A DNA stretch of 30,471 nucleotides from the IMG/VR virus record IMGVR_UViG_3300009176_000872, positions 1 to 30,471 of that record. One strand, given 5' to 3'. This document shows, one piece after another, positions 1,492 to 27,065 of the stretch. The notes beneath the pieces are model-generated. The model did no database searches and had not been told where the DNA came from. It saw nothing but the letters and a program-made list of their open reading frames with translations. Position numbers and translations under genes: made by a program. Position 1 is the first letter of the stretch; each line of letters begins with the position of its first letter. Source of the stretch: a virus.

Positions 1492-1505
1492 AGGAGTCAC
1501 GCATG
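1492..1505 (+). promoter_or_regulatory. Ribosome binding site plus start, copy 1 of an identical 14-mer
   Basis: AGGAGTCACGCATG places a strong Shine-Dalgarno 6 bases before the ATG at 1503. It decides the start of the Pro/Gly-rich gene over longer in-frame options. The same 14 bases recur at 12882-12895. Confidence 0.75.
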
Positions 1506-1946
1506 AAGAGCCATCTCGCACTGATCACGATCCTCGATGACCGAGGCGGGCCTGTCGATCCCGGCTACGGTGTCGGCGCGCCCGGCGGTCCTGTCGATCC
1601 CGGCTGGGGCGTGCGCCCGCCGGTTGACCCGGGCTACGGGCAGGGGCATCCGTCGCCGCCGCACCCGTGGTTCCCCGTCGGTGGTGGTCTACCGCCGCAC
1701 ATCGGTGGTGGCCCGGCGCACCCGCCGAACTACCCGACGACCGGCCCCGTGCCGACGCCGCCGCCCGTGACGCCCGACAACACGCTGCCCGAGGGTGGCG
1801 CGCCGCCGCAGATCTCGCTGCCCATCGTGCTGCCGCCGGATCCGGTGGTCGATGACACGCGGCTGTTCGAACTGAAGTACTCGGTGCGCTACGGCTGGGT
1901 GCTCGTGCCCGTCGAAGATGACGCCGTCGCCGCGCCGAAAAAGTAG
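1503..1946 (+). CDS. Pro/Gly-rich small protein, function unknown
   Basis: A 147-residue protein with no recognised enzyme domain. After a short hydrophobic start (MKSHLALITIL) there are three imperfect repeats of the type PVDPGYGV / PVDPGWGVR / PVDPGYGQG at residues 16-50. A long Pro/Gly-rich stretch follows to about residue 120, and then a compact C-terminal segment with aromatic and charged residues (FELKYSVRYGWVLVPVED). The start is set by AGGAG at 1492-1496. It sits between terminase and the PEP-CTERM gene. The layout of disordered repeats plus a small folded tail suggests a virion-associated or assembly protein, but this is inference. The N-terminus is not a convincing signal peptide. 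Confidence 0.8.
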   Translation: MKSHLALITILDDRGGPVDPGYGVGAPGGPVDPGWGVRPPVDPGYGQGHPSPPHPWFPVGGGLPPHIGGGPAHPPNYPTTGPVPTPPPVTPDNTLPEGGAPPQISLPIVLPPDPVVDDTRLFELKYSVRYGWVLVPVEDDAVAAPKK

Positions 1947-1995
1947 TAAGCTCTGCCGCACACTGGGCATCCCCGGTCAAGGAGATCGCGCACCC

Positions 1996-2673
1996 ATGAA
2001 GCTCTTCGCCCTCGCGCTCGTCGGCTTGCTTGCGCTCGCCGCTCCCGCCCGCGCAGACACCATCGTGACGTTCGGCAACGTGACGCCGAACCAGTTCTTC
2101 GCGGTGGACAACGGCGACGGGACCACGACCCTCTCGACCACGTCGTCGGTCAACATCACGCAGATCATCCTCGGCGCGACCGACCCCAACGCGCTGCTCA
2201 CGTTCACGGCCACGAGCACCGAGGACGCGCAGTTGCTGATCGGCGGCACCGTCATCAGCCAGCGGTTCGCGGGCACGTTCTCGCTGACGAACAGCGCGGG
2301 CACGTTCGACTACCTCGATGGCACCTTCGGCGCCGCGCTGGAGTTCGGCGGCACGGGCAGCACGGGCGCGATCCTGACGGCGAACAGTTCGCCCCAGTCG
2401 CCGCCGCTCGTGCTGACGACCGACCTGCTGCTGTCGCTCATCAACCCCGAGAGCTTCGGGCTGGCGTTCTCCAACATCACGCCGGGGCTGCACGTCAACA
2501 CCTACTCGGTGGGTGGCGTGTCGCACACGACCATCGCGAACTTCGCGGCCAGCTATGCGGGCAGCGCGGACGCGAACCTTGAAGCGGTGCCGGAGCCGAC
2601 GAGTCTCGTGCTGCTCGGCAGCGGGCTGTTCGGCCTCGCCGCGAAGCTGCGGAAGCGGTTCGTCCGCGCCTGA
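1996..2673 (+). CDS. Secreted protein with PEP-CTERM sorting signal
   Basis: A 225-residue exported protein. Residues 1-20 form a classical Sec signal peptide (MKLF, hydrophobic core, cleavage after ARA). The mature part is rich in Thr, Ser, Gly and Asn with alternating hydrophobics, as in beta-sandwich surface proteins. The C-terminus has the complete tripartite PEP-CTERM signal: VPEP at 198-201, a hydrophobic segment 204-216, and the basic cluster KLRKR at 217-221. In bacteria such proteins are cut and anchored or released by an exosortase of the host envelope and are linked to exopolysaccharide or biofilm. A longer in-frame start exists at 1918 but overlaps the preceding gene; the ATG at 1996 follows AAGGAG at 1980-1985 and yields the signal peptide. 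No exosortase is visible here, so processing would depend on the host. Its place among packaging genes is odd. Role inferred: envelope modification or superinfection exclusion. Confidence 0.88.
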   Translation: MKLFALALVGLLALAAPARADTIVTFGNVTPNQFFAVDNGDGTTTLSTTSSVNITQIILGATDPNALLTFTATSTEDAQLLIGGTVISQRFAGTFSLTNSAGTFDYLDGTFGAALEFGGTGSTGAILTANSSPQSPPLVLTTDLLLSLINPESFGLAFSNITPGLHVNTYSVGGVSHTTIANFAASYAGSADANLEAVPEPTSLVLLGSGLFGLAAKLRKRFVRA

Positions 2674-2870
2674 TGCTCCGCTGTCCGAAGTGTGGGCACT
2701 ACCTCGCCGTCTGCATCTGCGGGCGGCGAGCGGTGCTCATCGGCACGCCCTTCGTGCTGGTGACCGTCCTTGCCCGCACCGTCAACGCACAAGGAACGAC
2801 TGGCAGCGCGGGCGCATCTGTCGCGCCGTCAGGGACTACACGCCTCGTGGCTCCCATCGAACCCGCGTGA
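2673..2870 (+). CDS. Small Cys-rich protein, possible zinc knuckle
   Basis: A 65-residue frame whose ATG overlaps the stop of the PEP-CTERM gene (TGATG), a coupling seen repeatedly in this window. The N-terminus has CPKC at residues 4-7 and CIC at 14-16, spaced like a zinc knuckle, followed by a hydrophobic stretch (VLIGTPFVLVTVLA). The C-terminal third is low in character (Thr/Gly/Ser/Ala) and may not be genuine coding. A second Cys-rich frame overlaps its 3' half in the +1 frame, so the two could be one gene joined by frameshift or broken by a sequence error. Confidence 0.5.
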   Translation: MLRCPKCGHYLAVCICGRRAVLIGTPFVLVTVLARTVNAQGTTGSAGASVAPSGTTRLVAPIEPA

Positions 2871-3093
2871 AGACATCACCGTCTCCACGCGCGCGGACTA
2901 CGAGACGTGGGTCGAGTGTCGGCGCTGCCATCGAACGTGGCGCGCCGACGCCGCCCTTCCCGGCGTGCTCCATCACTACGTGGATCTCTGTGAACGCTGC
3001 GAGGTCACTCTCATGCAAACCACCGGCACCTTCCCTGCGCTGAGCCAACCTCGTCCGAAAGGCAAACCGAAGAGCGGCGGCAAGAAGCGGTAG
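2770..3093 (+). CDS. Cys-rich zinc-ribbon-like protein, start uncertain
   Basis: The convincing coding part is the C-terminal 65 or so residues: WVECRRCH, then about 20 residues, then LCERC (two CxxC pairs with a nearby His, as in a zinc ribbon), ending in a basic tail KGKPKSGGKKR. No ATG or GTG lies upstream of the first CxxC in this frame. The only listed start is a TTG at 2770 without a Shine-Dalgarno, and the first 30 residues lack character. Real translation may instead enter by a frameshift from the 2673 frame. It ends 10 bases before the portal start. Function unknown; a small nucleic-acid-binding protein is possible. Confidence 0.5.
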   Translation: MPAPSTHKERLAARAHLSRRQGLHASWLPSNPREDITVSTRADYETWVECRRCHRTWRADAALPGVLHHYVDLCERCEVTLMQTTGTFPALSQPRPKGKPKSGGKKR

Positions 3094-3103
3094 ACTCCGC
3101 ACC

Positions 3104-5338
3104 ATGCCGCCGTACCTGCCGGGCAAGACCCTCGGACGCCCGCCGCACGCCCCGAAGCGCGAGAAGACCCCGTTCGACGTACGCCTGAGCGAGGAGGAGA
3201 AGACCGCGCTCGTGCAGATGCTGAGCGAGGAGATCGACCGCGCGCTCGCCGCGCGTGCCCCGGTCATTCAGCCCGGCGGCGAACTGGACTACTGGCACTG
3301 GCTCTACAAGCAGGGCAAGCGCAACGTGCGCGACCTGCCGTTCCCCGGCGCCGCCGACCTCTCGACGTGGATCATCGCCGAGAAGATCGACGCGATGCGC
3401 GCGCGCTTCTGCAAGACCATCTTCGTGGAACCCGTGTGGGTCGTGGACGGCTGGGGCGCTGCCGCTGAGCGCGCGGCGATGGTCGAAGAGTTTCACCAGT
3501 GGAAGCTGGAAGAGGAGCGGCTGCAGGGCTGGCTGCAGCGCACGCTGCAGTTGTCGCTCATCGAGGGTACGGGCGTGTTGGAGTGCAGCGAGCGCGCCGA
3601 CATGATCAAGCGGCGCAGCATGAAGCAGTTGGCGCCGAAGATGGACGAGGAGACGGGCACCGTCGTGCTCGGCGACGACTACCAGCCGCAGCCGATGCAG
3701 GACGAGGAAGGCGAGTATCAGGAGGCCGACGACCCGTCGCAGCCGGGCGTGATGGCGACCGCGATGGACGAGTTCGTGCCGGTGCGGCGCGGCCCGAGCT
3801 ACCGCAACGTGTCGCTGCGCGACTTCCTGATGCTGCCCGCGCACGCGCAGGACGACTCTGAGGTGTGGTGCTACGCGAAGCGGTTCTGGCGGCGCCTGAA
3901 GGAACTGGAGTCACGCGGCAAGAGCGGCCTCTACGACAAGGACGCCGTCGCCGATCTCGCGGCGACCAGCGATCGTACGCGCACCGAACTGCCGCAGAGC
4001 GTGACCGCCGGGGGCATCGACGTGGCCGCGCAGACCACGCCGACGACCATCGAGAAGGAACTGTGGGAACTGCACTGCCTGCTCGACCTCGACAACGACG
4101 GCAACGAGGAGTGGTACATCATCACGCTGTCGAGCATCCACAAGAAGATCCTCCGCATCCAGCTTGACGACCTCGGCCTGCCCCGCTACCTGCTGTTCCG
4201 CCCGGCGCCGAACCCGCTGAACGTCTACGGCGAGAGCCACGTCGATAAGCTCGCGAGCATCGGCGAAGAGCACATGGGCACGCGCAACGCGGTCGCCGAC
4301 CGCAGCAACCTCGTGAACAACGCGCCCATCAAGCGACTGCGGAACAGCGGCTGGGACATGGACGAAGAGCCGTGGGGCGTCGGCGCGGTCATCACCGTGC
4401 AGGACATGAACGACGTGCAGCCGGTGACGCTGCCCGACGTGAGCGCGTCGATGGCCGGGCGCGAGCAGGGCATCATCGACGCTGCCGAGCGCCTGAGCGG
4501 GCTGAACGACGTGACGCTCGGCAGCGCGCCGCAGGAGTCGCGCACGCTCGGCGAAGTGCAGATGGTCACCGAGCAGAGCTTCGTTCGCATCGAAGAGCAG
4601 GTTCGCAACCTGCAAGAGACGATGGAAGACCTGTTCAAGATCCGCCACGAGTTGTGGCGGCGCGCCGCCGACGAGGCGCCGCTGGAACCGAGCGAGCGGT
4701 TCATTCGGCAGTTGGAGTTCCGGCAGATTGAGATGGCCGAGCAGGGCATCACGGGCGCCTCGCTCGCGGGCACCTTCCACGGCAAGCCGCACGGCAGCGT
4801 CGAGAGCGCGGACAAGTCGAAGCAGCGAAGCAACTACAACGGGTTCATGCAGGTCATGGGCGGGTTCGCGCAAATGAACCCGACGCTGCAGCAGGTCTTC
4901 GCGTCGCCCGACGTGATCATCCCGCTGTTCGAACAGGCGCTGAGCTTGTACGACTCGCCGAACAAGGGGCAGTTGATGCGCTCGCTGCGGCAGTGGCAGG
5001 CGCAGACCGAGCAGGCGGCACAGATGGCGGCGCAGCAGCCGCCCGCGCCGCCCGGGGCGCCGCCGGGACAACCGGGCGCACCGCCGCCGCCGGGTGGACC
5101 GGGTGCCGGGGCACCGCCGCCGCCGGGTGGCCCTCCTCCCGGGGGAGGCGCACCGCCGCCGGGACCGCCCGGTCCACCACCGGCTGGAGGCCCGCCGCAG
5201 GGAGGCCCGCCGCCGCCGCCACAAGGCCCGCCCGAGCAGGCGCCCGCGCCGCCGCCGGGGATGCCCAACGTGCCGCCTGACCTGCTCGCGTCGATGATGC
5301 AGGGCATGTCGAGCGGGTCGCAGGGGAGCGTCATGTGA
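3104..5338 (+). CDS. Portal protein (P22-like), with Pro/Gly-rich tail
   Basis: A 744-residue protein forming the dodecameric ring at the head vertex through which DNA enters and leaves, and the dock for terminase. The length is close to P22 gp1 (725 residues). The N-terminal segment DLPFPGAADLSTWIIAEKIDAM corresponds to the conserved start of the portal core in this family, in which a Trp/Pro-Gly-Ala motif precedes a helix. The helical stem and crown region runs to about residue 640, including a Gln-rich helix (WQAQTEQAAQMAAQQ). From about 646 to 722 there is an almost uninterrupted Pro/Gly tract, then a short amphipathic end. The start lacks a good Shine-Dalgarno but no better start exists. 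The stop overlaps the next gene. Confidence 0.9.
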   Translation: MPPYLPGKTLGRPPHAPKREKTPFDVRLSEEEKTALVQMLSEEIDRALAARAPVIQPGGELDYWHWLYKQGKRNVRDLPFPGAADLSTWIIAEKIDAMRARFCKTIFVEPVWVVDGWGAAAERAAMVEEFHQWKLEEERLQGWLQRTLQLSLIEGTGVLECSERADMIKRRSMKQLAPKMDEETGTVVLGDDYQPQPMQDEEGEYQEADDPSQPGVMATAMDEFVPVRRGPSYRNVSLRDFLMLPAHAQDDSEVWCYAKRFWRRLKELESRGKSGLYDKDAVADLAATSDRTRTELPQSVTAGGIDVAAQTTPTTIEKELWELHCLLDLDNDGNEEWYIITLSSIHKKILRIQLDDLGLPRYLLFRPAPNPLNVYGESHVDKLASIGEEHMGTRNAVADRSNLVNNAPIKRLRNSGWDMDEEPWGVGAVITVQDMNDVQPVTLPDVSASMAGREQGIIDAAERLSGLNDVTLGSAPQESRTLGEVQMVTEQSFVRIEEQVRNLQETMEDLFKIRHELWRRAADEAPLEPSERFIRQLEFRQIEMAEQGITGASLAGTFHGKPHGSVESADKSKQRSNYNGFMQVMGGFAQMNPTLQQVFASPDVIIPLFEQALSLYDSPNKGQLMRSLRQWQAQTEQAAQMAAQQPPAPPGAPPGQPGAPPPPGGPGAGAPPPPGGPPPGGGAPPPGPPGPPPAGGPPQGGPPPPPQGPPEQAPAPPPGMPNVPPDLLASMMQGMSSGSQGSVM

Positions 5339-8605: not shown

Positions 8606-9523
8606 ATGCAGGTTCGTGGAACTTTTGCGGCGCTATACGACAACGTTGACAAGACGGTGTACGCGCTGCTCGGCAAGCAACTCAAGGAACTGCCCCCCAT
8701 CTGGACCGACGTGTACTCGCGCAAGTCGTCGTCGCGCAAGTTCGAACGGTTCCAGACCGTGACGCCCTTCGGCGACGTGCCGGAGAAGCCGGAAGGCAGC
8801 GTCTACGCGTTCGACCTCATCCGCCCGGGCTACAGCAAGGACGTGACCCCGGTGGAGTTCGGCCTCGGCTTCGAAGTGACCGAGACGGCGATGGAAGACG
8901 ACCAGTTCGACGTGCTGCAGCGGCAGGCGTCGTGGCTGGCGTTCAGCGCGCGCGTCGTGCAGGAGAAGTACGCGGCGATCCCGTTCAACCTCGGGTTCAC
9001 CACGCAACTCGCGCCCGACGGCGTCTCGCTGTTCAACACCGCGCATGTGCTCGCGGGTGGCGGCACGGCGCGCAACCGGCCCGCGACGGACGCCGACCTC
9101 TCCTACGATTCGCTCAATCAGGCCATCGTGGACGTGCAGACCGACACGAAGCTGGAGTCGGGCCAGTTGGTCGCGCCCGTGATGAACTGGATCCTCTACG
9201 TGCCGCCGCAGTTGGAGATGCTCGCCGACCGGCTGCTCAACTCGACGCAGTTGCCCGGGTCGAACGACAACGACGTGAACCCGATCAAGCGTCGGCGCAA
9301 CATCTCGATCCTCACGAACCCGTACCTGACCGATCAGGACGCGTGGTACCTCGTGGCCTCCGCGAAGGAGACGCACGGCCTCGTGTGCGTGGATCGTGTC
9401 GGCATCACCGCCGCGCCTGCGATGCAGGACGCGCGGACGGGCAACCGGATCTACAAGGTGCGCTTCCGGCAGGCATGGGACGCGTTCCTCTGGCAGAACA
9501 TCTACGGCACCGCCGGGGCGTAG
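8606..9523 (+). CDS. Major capsid protein (HK97 fold, Mu gpT-like)
   Basis: A 305-residue protein that builds the icosahedral shell. Recognisable pieces are an N-terminal helix and extended arm (to about residue 75), a strand-rich region with FGLGFEVTETAMEDD near 90-104, SLFNTAHVLAGGGTARN at about 141-157, and RLLNSTQLPGSNDNDVNPIK at about 208-227, followed by ILTNPYLTDQDAWYLVA. The last three are hallmarks of Mu-like (gpT-type) major head proteins with the HK97 fold. AGGAG lies 9 bases before the ATG. The gene has a long conserved-looking frame, is preceded by the decoration-like gene and followed by a hairpin. No separate prohead protease gene is visible. Confidence 0.92.
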   Translation: MQVRGTFAALYDNVDKTVYALLGKQLKELPPIWTDVYSRKSSSRKFERFQTVTPFGDVPEKPEGSVYAFDLIRPGYSKDVTPVEFGLGFEVTETAMEDDQFDVLQRQASWLAFSARVVQEKYAAIPFNLGFTTQLAPDGVSLFNTAHVLAGGGTARNRPATDADLSYDSLNQAIVDVQTDTKLESGQLVAPVMNWILYVPPQLEMLADRLLNSTQLPGSNDNDVNPIKRRRNISILTNPYLTDQDAWYLVASAKETHGLVCVDRVGITAAPAMQDARTGNRIYKVRFRQAWDAFLWQNIYGTAGA

Positions 9524-19417: not shown

Positions 19418-21514
19418 ATGGACACCTTCCAGCGACTGCTCGGGAACCCGAACCCGCTCGCCGCGCTGCTGCAGGGCGCGCCGCAGATGATGCAGCCGCA
19501 GCAGCCGGAGGAGGAGGAGCAGTTCACGCGCCTGCCTTCGCTGACGGCGGATGGCAGCGGCGGTGCGCTCGGCGCCGTCGCGCAGGCGCTCGGCAACGTC
19601 AACTTCAGCGGCGGCGGCGCGCAGCCGACCGGCTACGGCGGCGACGACGCGCCCGCGCACGATGAAGACGCGGCGCCCGCGCACGACGAAGACGCGGCGA
19701 TCCCGGGCCTCGGCGCAGAACTGCAAGCGAACATGGGCCTCGGCGAGCAGCCTGCGGTGGACGAAGACGCGCTCGGGGCCGCGCGGGCCGATGTGGCAGG
19801 CGTCGATGACGCGGCGACGACGGCAGGCAGCGACGGGCTGGACGGGCCTGCGGCGGGCGCGCTCTCGCGGCTGAAGATGCCCGAGGCGCCCGTGCTCGAT
19901 GAGCGGTCGCTCTACCCGTCGCGCAAGCGCAGCGTGCTGCAGGCCGCGATCCCCGGCATCGCCGCGCTCATCGCCGGGCTGACCGGCGGGAAGATGGCAG
20001 CGGCGGGCGTGATGCACGGCGCCGCGACTGGCAACGAGCAGTTCAACCAGCAGCAGCGGCAGATGGGTCTGCTGCGCTACGAGCGGAGCAAGCAGCAGTA
20101 CGCGCGCGACGTGGCGCTCTACAACCAGTCGTGGACGCACGCGAAGGACCGCGCGTCGATCCTCTCCGAGTTGGCGAAGAAGGCCGCAGAGTTCGAAGAC
20201 CCCGACGTGGCGCGGCAGTGGCTCGCGTCGCAGCGGAAGATCTACGCGCCCTTCGGCGTCGATGCGATGGACGCGATGCCCGGCGGGATGATCCCCGGCG
20301 CGAAGGAGAAGATCGCGGCGCAGGCGACGAAGGTCTACAAGGAGGCGATGGCCGAGCTTCGCGCGAACAACCCCGGCAGCACGTTCGACGTGGCGAAGAT
20401 GAACGCGGGCAACTCGATCATGTTCCGAGGGAAGTTGATGACCCTCGGCGAACTGGCCGCGCTCGGCAACATCGCGAAGCCGGTGCCCGGCGCGCCCGAC
20501 GGCATCTCGTCCACAAAGACCGACGCGAACGCGATCTTTCAGGATCTTGTGGACGGGTATCGCGAGAGCACGGGGAAGGAACCCGACTCGGAGAAGCGCG
20601 CGGCGTATCGGCTGGAGGCGCTGCAGCAGTTCGCGAAGGCGAGCGCGAAGCCGCCCGACGAACTGACGAAGCAGATCACGCAGGCGCGCCTCGCGCTGCT
20701 GCAGTTGCAGCGGCAGAAGCTGCTGAACGGTGGGCACCCTGACGGCGTGAGCAACCTGAACCCCGGGCAACTCCGCTTCGGCATGGGCGTGGCGTCGCGC
20801 TACGAGAAGGCGTCGCAGCCGTTCAACCAGCGCGCGCAAGCCTACGACACCATCACGTCACTCGCGAGCGGGCCGCAGACCTCCGAGGGCGACATCGCGA
20901 TGGTGTTCGCGTGGATGAAGATGCTCGACCCGGGGTCCACCGTGCGCGAGGGCGAGCAGGCGCAGGTCAGCAACGCGCGCGGCGTGCCCGACTCGCTGCG
21001 GATGCAATACAACAACCTGCTCGGCAACACGGCGCTGCGCCTCACGAAGAAGCAGACGCTGGAGATCGTCGGCGGCGCGCATCGGCTCTACTCCAGCCTC
21101 GCGAAGGGGCAGCAGCAGTTGTTCGACAACTCCGCGCAGCAGTTGCGCGCCTACAAGGTCGCGCCGGGGCTGTTCCTCTCGCCGCAGGGCAGCGTGAACG
21201 ACACCTCGTCCTACCGCACGCTCGACGTGGAGAACGAGACGCGTCCGCTGCCGGAGAGCGCCGGGACGCCGAAGCCGACGCCACGCGCGCCGACGGAGTC
21301 GCCCATCGCGCCGCCGCAGGCGAGCGACGCCGGGCGCACGCCCGCTGCGATCCGCGCGGGTGCGCCGCCGCCGAAGGCCACGGCGCCCGCGAAGACCACG
21401 GGCGCAGCGCCGCCGAAGGGCACCATCGTGCGGAAGGGCGGGAAGACGTATCAGGTGATCGGCGTGAACCCCGACGGATCGCTGAAGTCGCAGCGCATCG
21501 ACCAGTACTTCTGA
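19418..21514 (+). CDS. Large internal virion/ejection-type protein
   Basis: A 698-residue protein. The first 40 residues have an acidic and Gln-rich stretch (QPQQPEEEEQF). Residues 78-93 are two APAHDEDA units, and an acidic Ala/Asp region continues to about 150. A Gly/Ala hydrophobic segment (VLQAAIPGIAALIAGLTGGK) lies near 173-192, suitable for membrane insertion, then long helices. At about 488-540 is a conserved-looking block 'GDIAMVFAWMKMLDPGSTVREGE' in outline, then 'GVPDSLRMQYNNLLG', a pattern recurring in large phage internal and tail proteins. The C-terminal 90 residues are Pro/Ala/Lys-rich and end in a small strand-rich motif (GTIVRKGGKTYQVIGVNPDG). No lysozyme motif found. Starts 3 bases after the previous stop. 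Confidence 0.78.
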   Translation: MDTFQRLLGNPNPLAALLQGAPQMMQPQQPEEEEQFTRLPSLTADGSGGALGAVAQALGNVNFSGGGAQPTGYGGDDAPAHDEDAAPAHDEDAAIPGLGAELQANMGLGEQPAVDEDALGAARADVAGVDDAATTAGSDGLDGPAAGALSRLKMPEAPVLDERSLYPSRKRSVLQAAIPGIAALIAGLTGGKMAAAGVMHGAATGNEQFNQQQRQMGLLRYERSKQQYARDVALYNQSWTHAKDRASILSELAKKAAEFEDPDVARQWLASQRKIYAPFGVDAMDAMPGGMIPGAKEKIAAQATKVYKEAMAELRANNPGSTFDVAKMNAGNSIMFRGKLMTLGELAALGNIAKPVPGAPDGISSTKTDANAIFQDLVDGYRESTGKEPDSEKRAAYRLEALQQFAKASAKPPDELTKQITQARLALLQLQRQKLLNGGHPDGVSNLNPGQLRFGMGVASRYEKASQPFNQRAQAYDTITSLASGPQTSEGDIAMVFAWMKMLDPGSTVREGEQAQVSNARGVPDSLRMQYNNLLGNTALRLTKKQTLEIVGGAHRLYSSLAKGQQQLFDNSAQQLRAYKVAPGLFLSPQGSVNDTSSYRTLDVENETRPLPESAGTPKPTPRAPTESPIAPPQASDAGRTPAAIRAGAPPPKATAPAKTTGAAPPKGTIVRKGGKTYQVIGVNPDGSLKSQRIDQYF
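19649..19696 (+). repeat. Tandem 24-base repeat coding APAHDEDA twice
   Basis: Two adjacent units in frame (19649-19672 and 19673-19696) differ at one base (GAT versus GAC). They add a short acidic His/Asp tract to the N-terminal linker. Confidence 0.85.
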
Positions 21515-21521
21515 GAACCCC

Positions 21522-24500
21522 ATGCCCGACGACGAGATCGTCAATCTAGATCCCAACGAGGTCGAGGTCGTCTCGCTGCCTCCGGCGATGAAGCCGATGG
21601 CGTCGCACGCGGCGGCAGCGGTGCGCGCGGGCGTGAAGCCGCGCAAGCGGCAGCACGAGATCACGCCGCTCTCCGAGGGACGCGTCGGGCAGACGCTCTC
21701 GGACCTGATGACCTACAACCCAGCCGAGGGCGGCGTCACGCTGAGCGAACTGACGGGCAGCGACAACGCGCTCGTGAGCGGCCTCGACGCGCTCTCGCAG
21801 GGCACGCACGACTTCATCACGGGCGGCGCGAAGAAGGTCGGGCAGTTCGGTTACAACCTCGGGCACGGCGCGATCACGCACGACCCGACCGGCATCGTGC
21901 GCGGCGCCTCGGAAGACTGGTGGGGCAAGGAGCACGTCAAGAACGCGTTCGGCCTCGATGACGAAGCGGACATCATCGTGCCGCCGTCGTCGCAGAAGGC
22001 TGACCCGCTGACCGGCGCCGTCACGCCGACGGCAGACGAGGCCGCGCTGATGAAGCGCGCCGAAGAGCAGCGCGTGCGGCGCGAGGGCGCACCCGAGTTC
22101 GGCGCGATGACCGACGTGCTGACGCCGCAGGGGAAGGCGCAGCACGCGGGCGCCATCACCACCGAACTGGCGGCGGCGCTCGCGCTGAACCCCGAGATGG
22201 AACTGCCCGCCGGGCTGACGGCGCTCATCGAGAAGGGCGCGACCGGCGGCATGGTGGCGCGCACGGCGGCACGCGCACCGGAGGCGCTCAAGCAGGCCGT
22301 CATCGGCGGCGTGCTCGGGCAGGCGACGACGCGCGACCCGCTCGCGGGCACGGTGTTCGGCGGCATCACGGGCGGGCTGATGGGCGGGCGCTCGCAGGCG
22401 GCGCTCGACGCAGCGGCAGACCGCATGGTCGGCAAAGCGAAGGTGCGCCTCGGGCGCGCCATCGCGCCGACGATGAAGGGCAACAAGAAGTTCGTGGAGG
22501 CCAACGCGGAGCAGATCATCCGCGAGGTGGACTGGTTCGGCACGGGCGGGCTGCAGGGGCTGCAGGAGTCGGCGGCAGCGAAGGCGACGAGCGCGGGCGA
22601 GAAGATCGATCAGGTGATGGCGAACCACCGGCAGGCCGACGTGTCGGGCCTGCTGAAGTCGGCGCGCACCGACCTGCAGACCACCGCGCAGCAGATGCTG
22701 CTGAAGGACAAGCAGGGCGTCGTGGAACTGGCGCCGCAGACGCGCGAGGCACTGGAGCACGCGGTCGAGTTGCTCACGCCCGGCAAGGGGCGGATCAACC
22801 CGATGAACACGAACCTCTCGACGCTGCGGCAGGCGCACGAGGTCGTGAACGACGCCGTCTACGAGATGCGCCGCGAGGTGCAGCGCCGCGTGCGGCAGAC
22901 GCGGCTGGGCTGGGCGGGCACCGTGATGGACAAGGCCATCGCGGCGGGCGTGCCGCAGCAGGCGCGGCAGGGCGCGCGGCTCGGGCGGGCGGGCATCGAG
23001 GATGTCATCGGCGCGGTCGAGGGCACGCGCACGAGCACGAAGCCGATCATCGCCGCGCTGGAGAAGGCGAAGGAGGGCTTCGGCAGCTACAACGCGGCGG
23101 GCCGCTTCGTCGCCGACGTGCCCGAGGCCGTCGCGCACATCGACAACATGATCAGCAACGTCGCCAGCTACGGCGACGAGATCAGCGCCGACACGTTGCG
23201 CTCGATGCGGCAGAACTGGGACAGCGTCGTCGCGGGCGCCGACGGCAAGGGCTGGCTCGGCACGAGCATCGCGGACGAGTCGCGGCGCGGCACGACGAAG
23301 ATCGGCGCGAACATCGCGCGCGAGGAACTGGGGAACCTCGTGCCGGAGGTGAAGCCGCACAACGCCGACTTCACCTTCCAGTCGAACCTGCGCGACGCCA
23401 TCGCCGACACACTGACGCGGCGCACCGGGCAGACCGGCGGGCTGATGAAGTCGCTGTCGGTGCTCGGCAGCGCGCTCGGCGTCGGCGGTTTCGCGGCAGG
23501 TTCCACGGCAGCGATGGCGACCGGCGGCACCAGCCTCGTGTTCACTGCGCTCATCCCGGCGTTCACGAAGATCGTCAAGTCGCCGGAGTTCAACCTGCTG
23601 AGCGCGAAGACGCGCCTCGCCATCGCCGACGCGGTGCGCTCGGGGTCTGCCGAGAAGTTGTGGGGCGCGGCGCAGCGGCTCACGCTGGAAGCGAAGCTGC
23701 ACGAGCAGGCGGCGGGCGGTCATCCCGCCAGCGGCGGCGCCGACCTCACCGACGAGGAGTATCAGCACGAACTGCAGAAGCTCATCGGCGGTCAGGGGCT
23801 GACGCCGGGCATCACCGACCGCGCGAACCCCGACTCGGCCTACGCCGACGCGCCCGGCTACGACGAGGACCGCCCCGGCGCGCCGGAGATGCCGGAGCCG
23901 GGCATCCTGCCGGGCAGCAGCGACGCCGACGACCCGATGCCGGGCGACCCCGACTACCAGCCGGGGATCGATGGCCCGGCAGTGGACGACGCGCCTGCCG
24001 AGGTCGCGCGCGGCGAGACATCGCTCGGGCCGCGCGACCCGGGCCGCACGCACAACGCCGAGCAGGTCTATCAGGCCAGCATGGTGCCCGGCGAGGGGCT
24101 GCTCAAGCGCGGCCTGCAGTGGGCACAGACGCCCCTGCTGGAGGGACCGGACATCGAGGGGCACCCGACCATCAGCCGGGCGCTCAAGCTCGGCGCCCAG
24201 TTCACCAGCCCCCTCGATCTGGCCTTCCTCGGCGAGGAGGCCGCACGACCCCTGCTGGCGGGCACCAGAGCGGCCCGGGGCGCCGAGGCTGTAGGGCGCG
24301 GTGTCAGCGGAACAATGGCTCTGGCGGGCGCCCAGAACCTTGAGGAGGGCATTAAGAGCGGATCCCCGAGTCAGGTCGTCGGAGGAGGCACCCAGTTGCT
24401 GTTCGGCGGGCTGGGCGCCCGGTCGCGCGGCCTCGCCGGGGCGGCTGAGGAAGTCGGCAGCGTCGCCTCCCGGGTGGGCACCGGGCTGCGCCGGGCGGGC

Positions 24501-27065
24501 ACGCAGGCCGTTGTCGGCCCGGCCATCGCGCTCGGCTCATCCGCCATCGCCGACTCGCCCGCCATGCGGCGGATGATCCCCGACGACGACCGGCGCAACG
24601 CCGTCGTCACCGGGCTGCAGGTCATGGGCATGGGCGCGCTCGGCGCCGCCGCCTACCGCAACATGACGCCGACGATGAAGGCGACCACGCACGCCGCCGG
24701 GCAGTTGTCCATCGGGCGCGCCGAATCGATCGTACGCCACGAGATCCGGCCCGCGCTGGAAGCCGACGTGCGCGCGAAGTATCCCGGCTGGGCCGACGAG
24801 AAGGTGGCCGCGAAGGTGACGACGCTGGAAGACGCCGCCATCACGAAGGCGCGCAGCGCACTGGAAGAGGTTCACGCGGAGAGCGGCGGGCGCGCGACGG
24901 ACCCGCGCACCTACGAGCAGAACGTGCGGCCCGACCTGCGCCACTTCGGCGACTGGTATCGCGGCGCGAAGGACATGGTCAAGGAGATGATCCCGGCGGC
25001 TGAGGGCGAGGCCGTCAACGCCGACGGGCTGACCACGAAGCAGGCGCTCGGCGTTGACTCGCTCGCGACGTTCGGCACGAACACGCCGCCGAAGCAGAAC
25101 TACGAACTGTTCGCCGAGGCCGCTGACCAGATCAACGGCGCGCCCGCGCACCTCTCGCGCGAGGAGTTGCTGCAGTGGACGAAAGAGAACCGGATGCCGG
25201 GCGGCAACCTCTTCGGGATGGATCCCGACAAGCCCGGCGTGCCCGCGCTGCGGAACATCGTCACCGGCAAGGAGGAGGGCTTCGGCGGGCGGAAGATCGA
25301 GAGCTACGGCATCAACCTCGCCGAGGGCACGCGTCCCGACATCACCGGCAAGGAGGTGATCCCGGCGACGGTGGACCGCTGGATCTACCGCGCGGCAGGT
25401 CTGCCGACGGAAGTGCCGGAGCGCACGGGCGAGCCGGTGTATCGCACGAACCCGAAGACCGGCCAGCCGCTGCTCGACCCGCAGACGGGCGAGCCGATGC
25501 AGCGCGGCGGCTCTCGCACGAAGCAGAAGGTCGTCGCGCTCGGCACGAATGAGGAACGCTACGCGAGCGAGACGGAGCGGCTGATGGCGCAGGCGACGCA
25601 GCGCGCGGAGGCGCGCGGCACGCCGATCACGCAGCGGGAGATCGACGCCATCGACACGCTCGCGCGGCGCAACGCGCAGCAGCACGAGGTGCCCGTGCAG
25701 AAGCAGGCCGGGCGCTCGACCGCCGTCGGCAGTCGCTGGCTCGGGCAGAGCACGCCGGGCAACGTGTCGTACGAAGTCATCGAGCAGGGGCTGAAGCGCG
25801 CCGGGCAACTGCAGGGGCTGGATGTCGATCAAGCGCAGGCGATGACGTGGTACAAGGCGAAGCTGCAGAGCAACCTCTCGCACGCCGAGGCGCCGGAGCA
25901 GGGTCTGCCGTTCCCGCAGCAGCGCAAGCTCGCGCAGACGCAGGCGCGTGAACTGGCGACCGAGGTGGCGGCGCTGCCTGCCGACGCGCCGTGGTCGGAG
26001 CGCACCGCGCAGGCGCGCAAGATCATCGAGGCGCGCAACGCCGCGCTCGCGAAGACGCTGGGCGCGAACGCGACCGGCCCCGACAGCGGGTTCTCGCGCG
26101 TCATCAAGACGAACACCGACCCGGGCGGCTCGCCCGTTTCAGCGGTCAGCATCTACCCTGAGCGGCAGGTCATCGTGCCGCGCGGCGTGCGCGCCGTGCA
26201 GGGCGACTACAACTCCGCGCTCGCGTCCTTCATCCGCGACAACGCGGACCTGCTGGACGATCCGAACCTCGGCGTCGGCGGCTGGGTCGTGAAGGCGCCG
26301 ACGGCAGCAGAGCGGCGCGCCGGGAAGAAGCCGATGCAGTTCGGCGGGCGCGAGGTGCCCGAGGGCACGCTGGTGCTCGACGTGGTCGCGCTGCCGAGCA
26401 ACAAGGCGAACAATGCCATCGCGAAGTCGCTGGGCATGGAGTACCTGCAGGATTCGATCTTCGATCTGGAGAAGTTCGAAAACGTGAAGACCGGCGGGCA
26501 GTCCTATGGACGCCGGTCGCCTGCGGCGATCCGCGCGCAGCAGGAGCGGCGCCCGGGCGTCTACGAGCGCGGCGGCGAGTTGACGCCGGAGAAGGTGCCC
26601 GAGCGGCTGCGCGGGTTGCGAGAGGGCGGCGGGTTGTCCGATCAGCAGTCGAAGATGCTCGACCAGTGGCAGGCCGAGCAGGAGGTGCGCGGGCGCTCGC
26701 GCTCGGCACCCGCGACCGCTGCCGCGCGCGGGCCGAAGCCGACGACGGTGCCCGGCGTCGATGGGCCGGTCACGATCAAGAAGGGACCGGACTTTCAGAT
26801 GGAAGGCGAGTGGCACGTCACGATGCCCGACGGGCGCACGTTCCCGATCTACAAGAACCAGTCGCCGGGCGGGCTGGGCGAGTGGCTGGTCAAGGGGCTG
26901 GAGGATCACCCGCTCTCGGGCTTCACGCGCAACGAACTGATCGAGCGCCTCGCGACGCTCGATGAGTCGAAGCCGGTGCTGAACAAATACCGTGGGGGCA
27001 GCACGGGGAAGACCATCGGCGAGACGCTCAACGCGCAGCGTCGTCGGGCCGGGCTGGCGCACTGA
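21522..27065 (+). CDS. Giant internal virion protein, multidomain
   Basis: An 1847-residue protein, the largest in the window. Residues 1-640 are mainly helical with Ala/Gly hydrophobic stretches (about 240-300, and 645-690 with LGSALGVGGFAAGSTAAMAT), suitable for envelope insertion. An acidic Pro-rich linker (760-845) separates a second Gly/Ala-rich part (about 850-1040). Residues about 1132-1450 show an ordered domain: FGDWYRGAKDMV near the start, TVDRWIYRAAGL at 1283-1294 and VDQAQAMTWYKAKLQ at 1435-1449. The same order of motifs occurs, as I recall, in phage polyvalent proteins (a DUF7178-like family; name uncertain). Residues about 1524-1660 form a further alpha/beta domain ending SIFDLEKFENVKTGG. 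A basic tail closes the protein. Codon choice changes in the middle (see findings). The role as ejected protein is inferred from size and position. Confidence 0.82.
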   Translation: MPDDEIVNLDPNEVEVVSLPPAMKPMASHAAAAVRAGVKPRKRQHEITPLSEGRVGQTLSDLMTYNPAEGGVTLSELTGSDNALVSGLDALSQGTHDFITGGAKKVGQFGYNLGHGAITHDPTGIVRGASEDWWGKEHVKNAFGLDDEADIIVPPSSQKADPLTGAVTPTADEAALMKRAEEQRVRREGAPEFGAMTDVLTPQGKAQHAGAITTELAAALALNPEMELPAGLTALIEKGATGGMVARTAARAPEALKQAVIGGVLGQATTRDPLAGTVFGGITGGLMGGRSQAALDAAADRMVGKAKVRLGRAIAPTMKGNKKFVEANAEQIIREVDWFGTGGLQGLQESAAAKATSAGEKIDQVMANHRQADVSGLLKSARTDLQTTAQQMLLKDKQGVVELAPQTREALEHAVELLTPGKGRINPMNTNLSTLRQAHEVVNDAVYEMRREVQRRVRQTRLGWAGTVMDKAIAAGVPQQARQGARLGRAGIEDVIGAVEGTRTSTKPIIAALEKAKEGFGSYNAAGRFVADVPEAVAHIDNMISNVASYGDEISADTLRSMRQNWDSVVAGADGKGWLGTSIADESRRGTTKIGANIAREELGNLVPEVKPHNADFTFQSNLRDAIADTLTRRTGQTGGLMKSLSVLGSALGVGGFAAGSTAAMATGGTSLVFTALIPAFTKIVKSPEFNLLSAKTRLAIADAVRSGSAEKLWGAAQRLTLEAKLHEQAAGGHPASGGADLTDEEYQHELQKLIGGQGLTPGITDRANPDSAYADAPGYDEDRPGAPEMPEPGILPGSSDADDPMPGDPDYQPGIDGPAVDDAPAEVARGETSLGPRDPGRTHNAEQVYQASMVPGEGLLKRGLQWAQTPLLEGPDIEGHPTISRALKLGAQFTSPLDLAFLGEEAARPLLAGTRAARGAEAVGRGVSGTMALAGAQNLEEGIKSGSPSQVVGGGTQLLFGGLGARSRGLAGAAEEVGSVASRVGTGLRRAGTQAVVGPAIALGSSAIADSPAMRRMIPDDDRRNAVVTGLQVMGMGALGAAAYRNMTPTMKATTHAAGQLSIGRAESIVRHEIRPALEADVRAKYPGWADEKVAAKVTTLEDAAITKARSALEEVHAESGGRATDPRTYEQNVRPDLRHFGDWYRGAKDMVKEMIPAAEGEAVNADGLTTKQALGVDSLATFGTNTPPKQNYELFAEAADQINGAPAHLSREELLQWTKENRMPGGNLFGMDPDKPGVPALRNIVTGKEEGFGGRKIESYGINLAEGTRPDITGKEVIPATVDRWIYRAAGLPTEVPERTGEPVYRTNPKTGQPLLDPQTGEPMQRGGSRTKQKVVALGTNEERYASETERLMAQATQRAEARGTPITQREIDAIDTLARRNAQQHEVPVQKQAGRSTAVGSRWLGQSTPGNVSYEVIEQGLKRAGQLQGLDVDQAQAMTWYKAKLQSNLSHAEAPEQGLPFPQQRKLAQTQARELATEVAALPADAPWSERTAQARKIIEARNAALAKTLGANATGPDSGFSRVIKTNTDPGGSPVSAVSIYPERQVIVPRGVRAVQGDYNSALASFIRDNADLLDDPNLGVGGWVVKAPTAAERRAGKKPMQFGGREVPEGTLVLDVVALPSNKANNAIAKSLGMEYLQDSIFDLEKFENVKTGGQSYGRRSPAAIRAQQERRPGVYERGGELTPEKVPERLRGLREGGGLSDQQSKMLDQWQAEQEVRGRSRSAPATAAARGPKPTTVPGVDGPVTIKKGPDFQMEGEWHVTMPDGRTFPIYKNQSPGGLGEWLVKGLEDHPLSGFTRNELIERLATLDESKPVLNKYRGGSTGKTIGETLNAQRRRAGLAH

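Follow-up and report, generated by a model that had tools for sequence, protein, structure and literature searches.

A phage-encoded PEP-CTERM protein, a putative substrate of the host exosortase

Our analyses confirmed that a phage genome fragment carries a genuine gene for a PEP-CTERM protein, and the gene is one case of a practice that recurs among phages. The PEP-CTERM/exosortase system (XrtA, EpsH; TIGR02595, PF07589) is a Gram-negative bacterial system, reportedly associated with the work of Haft (2006), and sorting of this type has so far been studied as a bacterial exopolysaccharide and floc system. In the portions of the open-licence literature that were covered, we found no published description of a phage-encoded PEP-CTERM protein or of a phage role for one, in agreement with the initial annotation of this DNA, which knew of no described phage function. 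One line in the portion consulted of a study of Yellowstone viruses places TIGR03118-type proteins with a putative exosortase-interaction tail among horizontally acquired genes (PMC11003980). Those proteins resemble the one described here in being virus-encoded and in bearing such a tail, but they belong to another family and, in that portion, are presented as transferred cellular proteins with no function proposed. Three further papers (PMC12642866, PMC4886054 and PMC11844469) treat host genes.

Results

A PEP-CTERM Gene Lies between Terminase and Portal Genes

The window, by which we mean the whole stretch of DNA analyzed, is a 30.5-kb IMG/VR record (IMGVR_UViG_3300009176_000872) with terminase, SU10-type portal and capsid genes (Table 1). 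The 225-aa product starts at an ATG with AAGGAGA ahead of it. Its N terminus is MKLFALALVGLLALAAPARA followed by D and, read by eye, contains a basic residue, a hydrophobic core and A-R-A at the expected cut; its C terminus is VPEPTSLVLLGSGLFGLAAKLRKRFVRA. In searches with the 225-aa product, PF07589 scored 27.5 bits (cut-off 20.7) and TIGR02595 scored 21.5 bits (cut-off 16). On the whole record, PF07589 reached 31.7 bits (E 8e-9), with matches in 0/14 control genomes. The product therefore carries the tail that defines PEP-CTERM proteins, namely a PEP motif, a hydrophobic segment and a basic tail, with scores above the curated cut-offs. The initial annotation, which had described a Sec signal peptide followed by a VPEP motif, a hydrophobic segment and a KLRKR tail, was correct in all sequence details, the signal being judged by eye, and the profile check that it proposed gave scores above both curated cut-offs.

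Like bacterial PEP-CTERM proteins, the product combines a signal peptide, a divergent mature domain, a PEP motif, a hydrophobic segment and a basic tail, and processing by exosortase would be expected. Unlike the bacterial system, it is phage-encoded, lies apart from an exosortase/exopolysaccharide locus, has a mature domain with no match in the bacterial genomes that were searched and is accompanied by a small companion. The best whole-protein resemblance in NCBIfam was to NF033554, the PepA flocculation family (33.1 bits, residues 93 to 221), which is far below the family cut-off of 80, and membership in that family was rejected. Pfam/NCBIfam-type profile searches recognized no polysaccharide-degrading or -binding domain in the PEP protein, and the PADLOC anti-phage defense profiles matched neither it, nor its companion, nor the second PEP proteins described below.

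Table 1. Features of the window around the PEP-CTERM gene
Feature	Position	Strand	Basis
Terminase large subunit (terL), open at left contig end	7..1455	+	Best tblastn match to an annotated phage terminase, E 3e-22
Pro/Gly-rich protein, 147 aa, upstream neighbor of PEP gene	1503..1946	+	Homologues adjoin PEP gene in several relatives
Shine-Dalgarno-like AAGGAGA 5' of ATG	1979..1985	+	Sequence; aligned relatives with similar GGAG
PEP-CTERM protein gene, 225 aa	1996..2673	+	PF07589 and TIGR02595 above cut-off; 25 full-length viral relatives with same architecture
Sec-type signal peptide (predicted), residues 1-20, MKLFALALVGLLALAAPARA	1996..2055	+	Sequence reading; relatives conserve its place and character
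Mature domain, predicted antiparallel beta-barrel	2056..2583	+	pLDDT 88.8, pTM 0.84, domain alone
PEP-CTERM tail: VPEP motif, hydrophobic segment, KLRKR	2584..2655	+	PF07589 match, residues 197-220
Companion gene, 65 aa, one-base overlap of its ATG with the PEP stop	2673..2870	+	Zn-ribbon-like CPKCG..CIC start
Small Cys-rich ORF (WVECRRCHRTW...LCERC), two CxxC pairs, start not settled	2878..3093	+	Similar ORF 3' of PEP gene in L006/L007
Portal protein, SU10 type	3104..5338	+	PF23899 E 1.4e-18; phrog_1216
Major capsid protein (MCP)	8606..9523	+	PF25209 E 3.3e-18

The Gene Belongs to the Phage

Two further IMG/VR records, drawn from different metagenomes, have an identical PEP gene in the same order and among genes of 100% identity. 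The order terL, PEP gene, portal is also kept in diverged relatives (L041, L045, L046, L017 and L051) with terL identities of 83 to 90%, and on other contigs the companion holds its place in the order terL, PEP gene, companion, portal. The PEP gene has a GC3 of 0.95, close to the 0.91 to 0.93 of terL, portal and MCP. Because gene order is kept in independent and diverged contigs and GC3 matches the neighbors, the PEP gene is a phage gene and no chimera. PEP-CTERM proteins are otherwise a bacterial feature, which would fit a bacterial gene in a viral contig that is chimeric or was called viral by mistake; the initial annotation had itself raised the chimera objection. For this lineage the conserved order, the GC3 and the diverged relatives contradict that objection, and with the mature domain also not found in the bacterial genomes searched, an artefact is scarcely credible.

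Further along the window, positions 19418-21514 encode a 698-aa protein matching phrog_13634, a family of unknown function (E 2.7e-13), and positions 21522-27065 hold an ORF of 1847 aa with no Pfam match in its first 693 residues, the product of which is possibly a large virion or ejection protein.

Relatives Keep Both Sorting Signals and Show Purifying Selection

Our first scan of viral contigs relied on six patterns that all lie within the mature domain and so had no bias towards the tail. All of the loci recovered by these patterns (16/16) keep a signal peptide and the VPEP, hydrophobic and basic parts of the tail. A profile search yielded 27 loci, including 25 full-length relatives with identities down to 36%, all with the tail; this search included a tail pattern and, taken alone, is biased towards the tail. 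The two loci left out of the full-length set are L053, which is cut by a contig end, and L056, which has only the tail in common. Every full-length family member has the PEP motif unchanged. For the close pair L006/L007, dN/dS (NG86) was 0.09, and in the other computable pairs it was mostly 0.1 to 0.6, with several pairs saturated; these ratios indicate that the PEP gene is under purifying selection. In lineage A, where the PEP gene lies between terL and portal, the PEP protein is 52 to 62% identical between relatives, compared with 97 to 98% for MCP and 82 to 90% for terL and portal, which places it among the fastest-evolving products of its module. Such rapid change would be as expected of a surface protein in conflict.

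The Mature Domain Moves between Phages

The neighbors of the PEP gene differ among phages. It lies upstream of terL in L048 and L049 and, in L043, L044 and L047, upstream of a terminase that belongs to another family (phrog_979). In L038, L039, L050 and L054 its neighborhood includes genes for a helicase (phrog_62), a DNA polymerase (phrog_17) or methyltransferase/ParB, and in L040 it includes QueC, PDDEXK and AAA genes. The mature domain is thus found in phages with differing terminases, polymerases and helicases. The placement among packaging genes given by the initial annotation holds in this lineage, and the survey that it suggested found the gene between terL and portal in the five diverged relatives named above; in other phages the neighbors are others, replication genes among them. 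Late expression, which had been proposed from the position, was not borne out: consensus scans, which are weak for such GC-rich phages, found no promoter or terminator near the PEP gene, and elsewhere the gene adjoins helicase, DNA polymerase and methyltransferase genes.

In one pair, L014/L016 (also given as L043/L045), the DNA detectably in common is confined to a 554-base mature-domain block that is 83% identical. When the segments are compared separately, the mature domain is 95% identical in amino acids and 85% in nucleotides, against nucleotide identities of 43% for the signal peptide and 56% for the tail. We read this pattern as a shared cargo domain whose sorting tags appear to have been swapped to match the host of each phage. 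Rapid divergence is common in signal peptides and tails, and quick drift of the tags under relaxed constraint, which we consider a weaker explanation than replacement, could account for part of the pattern.

A homologue of the Pro/Gly-rich gene that precedes the PEP gene in the window also lies beside the PEP gene in L047, from another lineage, and this gene may be part of the same movable group.

A Small Companion Accompanies the PEP Gene

The companion contains a single hydrophobic, signal-like stretch that ends in AxA, and its tail reads GSAGASVAPSGTT, with PSGTT; its relatives have CGSCVPSGTT. Forms lacking the Zn-ribbon occupy the same place in other lineages (L038, L040, L043 and L048). 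A search with the companion only returned five loci, a small number, each of them on a contig with the PEP gene. Comparison with NCBIfam gave no convincing profile for the companion, and a ten-member companion alignment was too diverse for scanning. The companion-only search provides good evidence that the PEP gene and the companion form a two-gene unit, and the companion, which often travels with the PEP protein, probably acts with it.

The Predicted Fold Points to No Function

AlphaFold2 modeled the mature domain as an antiparallel beta-barrel (Table 1). The best structural neighbors had Z scores of 8.7 to 9.6 and were tied between soluble dirigent/cyclase barrels and OmpA/OmpW barrels; scores for individual neighbors were 8.7 for PloI4, 8.1 for OmpA, 8.0 for dirigent and 7.9 for OmpW, and a Z of 8 to 9 is about what a model lacking a clear match would give. 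Foldseek gave no match for the mature domain at E ≤ 0.001, and there was no sequence match in the PDB. As modeled, the fold points to no function.

Exosortase Is Found on the Cellular Side

Exosortase (PF09721) was detected in 0/18 and 0/48 viral records and was present in 10/10 cellular genomes with a similar tail. Because the viral records tested carry none, a host exosortase would be needed, which upholds the phage side of the earlier suggestion that the phage uses the host's own sorting enzyme. A profile of the mature domain matched none of 396 Acidobacteriota genomes and none of 369 genomes of the class of Aromatoleum (765 bacterial genomes in total); as a positive control, it matched 10/13 viral records, down to E 2e-9. 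With the domain absent from the 765 bacterial genomes and the control positive, we conclude that it is phage-only within the sampled genomes. In GTDB contigs, the search for cellular relatives gave tail matches only, and among the isolated phages of INPHARED neither the protein nor the consensus tail had a match. No integrase was found in 18 records, which makes an advantage in lytic infection more likely than lysogenic conversion.

Comparison with Acidobacteriota genomes pointed to no host. The capsid search gave one remote match in 396 genomes, at 32% identity only, and 20 kb of the window compared as DNA with 396 Acidobacteriota genomes gave weak matches in 114 of them (best 57 bits) that were scattered and compositional. 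The window had no spacer-like perfect match in these genomes, and 18 sources contained no tRNAs for host matching.

Viral PEP-CTERM Proteins Form a Wider Class

A tail-only scan of IMG/VR returned 344 stretches, with 80 loci among the matches listed. The hydrophobic and basic parts were present in 80/80 of these listed loci, and a hydrophobic N-terminal segment, by a crude rule, in 77/80, the other three ORFs running off a contig end. The mature domains of the 80 listed loci fell into at least 23 clusters with no mutual match at E 1e-5. Among the listed loci, the largest cluster is the family of the window's protein and the next hold 15 and 10 loci, some of them copies of one virus. A recognizable phrog_2 terminase was present in 16/48 tail-scan records, and some loci may be provirus flanks or mis-called contigs. 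Another large viral PEP-CTERM family is formed by L082:3293-4084 and its cluster mates L080, L092, L099, L104, L122, L127, L133 and L142; these proteins are about 240 aa long with an RGQ motif before the tail, and several of the contigs have a recognizable terminase.

Some records encode a second, unrelated PEP-CTERM protein beside the first, with one family common to L040 and L045 and another to L043/L044. These second genes follow directly after the first (L040:6442-7158, L045:10688-11539 and L043:10810-11595). The second proteins of L040 and L045 are related despite the differing phages and have a long poly-proline stretch before the tail. The L040 phage, with its two PEP-CTERM proteins, also has a QueC gene at L040:8578-9345 (E 6e-53).

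From these comparisons it seems reasonably probable that phage exosortase substrates are a widespread, overlooked class of cargo, in which the unrelated secreted domains of many phage lineages, bearing host-matched PEP-CTERM tags, would be exchanged as modules, often with a small signal-bearing partner, and would rebuild the infected-cell surface via the host exosortase.

Discussion

In the mechanism that we propose, the PEP protein would be made during infection and exported by host Sec via its predicted signal peptide. The hydrophobic tail would hold it in the inner membrane with the basic end inside, and a host exosortase of the XrtA/EpsH type would cut near VPEP. We consider Sec export and cutting by the host enzyme likely, with the tail present in the protein and no such enzyme in the viral records tested. 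Bacterial PEP-CTERM proteins keep exopolysaccharide attached to the cell (PMC9850573, PMC12188702), and the system offers a basis for surface or polysaccharide placement (PMC12188702, PMC9850573, PMC11980579). By analogy with it, the small beta-barrel domain would reach the outer surface and exopolysaccharide and either be set free or be anchored there. The infected-cell surface would then be changed in the phage's favor, most likely because the protein masks a receptor or polysaccharide to which phages attach, such that superinfecting phages are excluded and progeny are spared sticking to debris. We hold this last step tentatively, at somewhat less than even confidence. The initial annotation had put forward surface roles of this kind, namely a block on other phages, an altered polysaccharide layer or help in release, and these likewise stand as proposals. 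The explanation as a whole, a phage-encoded exosortase substrate displayed on the infected cell and most likely masking it, we rate as slightly less likely than not.

The proposed benefit is comparable to that of the T5/BF23 lipoprotein Llp, a phage protein in the infected-cell envelope that acts as a receptor block and presumably protects progeny (PMC4728585), although by a different sorting pathway. The likeness lies in how the two may work, that is, in the proposed envelope placement of a phage protein in the infected cell. Llp is a lipoprotein encoded beside a receptor-binding gene, whereas the PEP protein bears an exosortase tag, has no lipobox Cys at the end of its signal peptide and neighbors terminase and portal; we therefore did not class it as Llp-type, and a receptor role for it is put forward by analogy. 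That the PEP gene, unlike llp, is not beside a receptor-binding protein gene argues against receptor masking.

Several other explanations were weighed. The sorted protein might instead join the exopolysaccharide and loosen or thicken it for virion exit, spread or competitor exclusion, with no specific receptor block. PEP-CTERM proteins decide whether polysaccharide is bound or released (PMC9850573) and act in adhesion to polysaccharide (PMC12188702), and many unrelated mature domains in phages would fit differing actions on differing matrices; no polysaccharide-degrading or -binding domain was recognized, however, and the fold is not informative, and we think this alternative rather unlikely. 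Given that the phage families have nothing in common but the tail and that the enzyme is in no phage record, an abundant phage substrate could also serve to occupy the host exosortase and leave host surface proteins undisplayed. Such a decoy would not need the mature domain, which is more conserved than the tail in several pairs and appears to be under purifying selection, and we judge it quite improbable.

The two remaining alternatives draw on the position of the gene near structural genes in this lineage. If the protein served lysis or signaling, its single C-terminal hydrophobic segment and basic end might do no more than anchor it in the membrane, with the PEP motif incidental, but a plain anchor requires neither the PEP motif that every full-length member keeps unchanged nor the match to curated profiles, and this explanation is improbable. 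Placement between terminase and portal could also reflect assembly of a virion protein whose domain decorates the particle. Every full-length member has a signal peptide and tail, and elsewhere the domain lies beside replication genes, which make a virion protein very improbable. We thus favor display of an exosortase substrate on the infected cell.

If phages routinely supply substrates, exosortase would be a host factor in phage infection, and PEP-CTERM genes in phages would mark hosts with exosortase and an outer membrane. A sorting system with few understood substrates would become testable via phage biology, and the finding suggests a way for viruses to shape soil and water biofilms.
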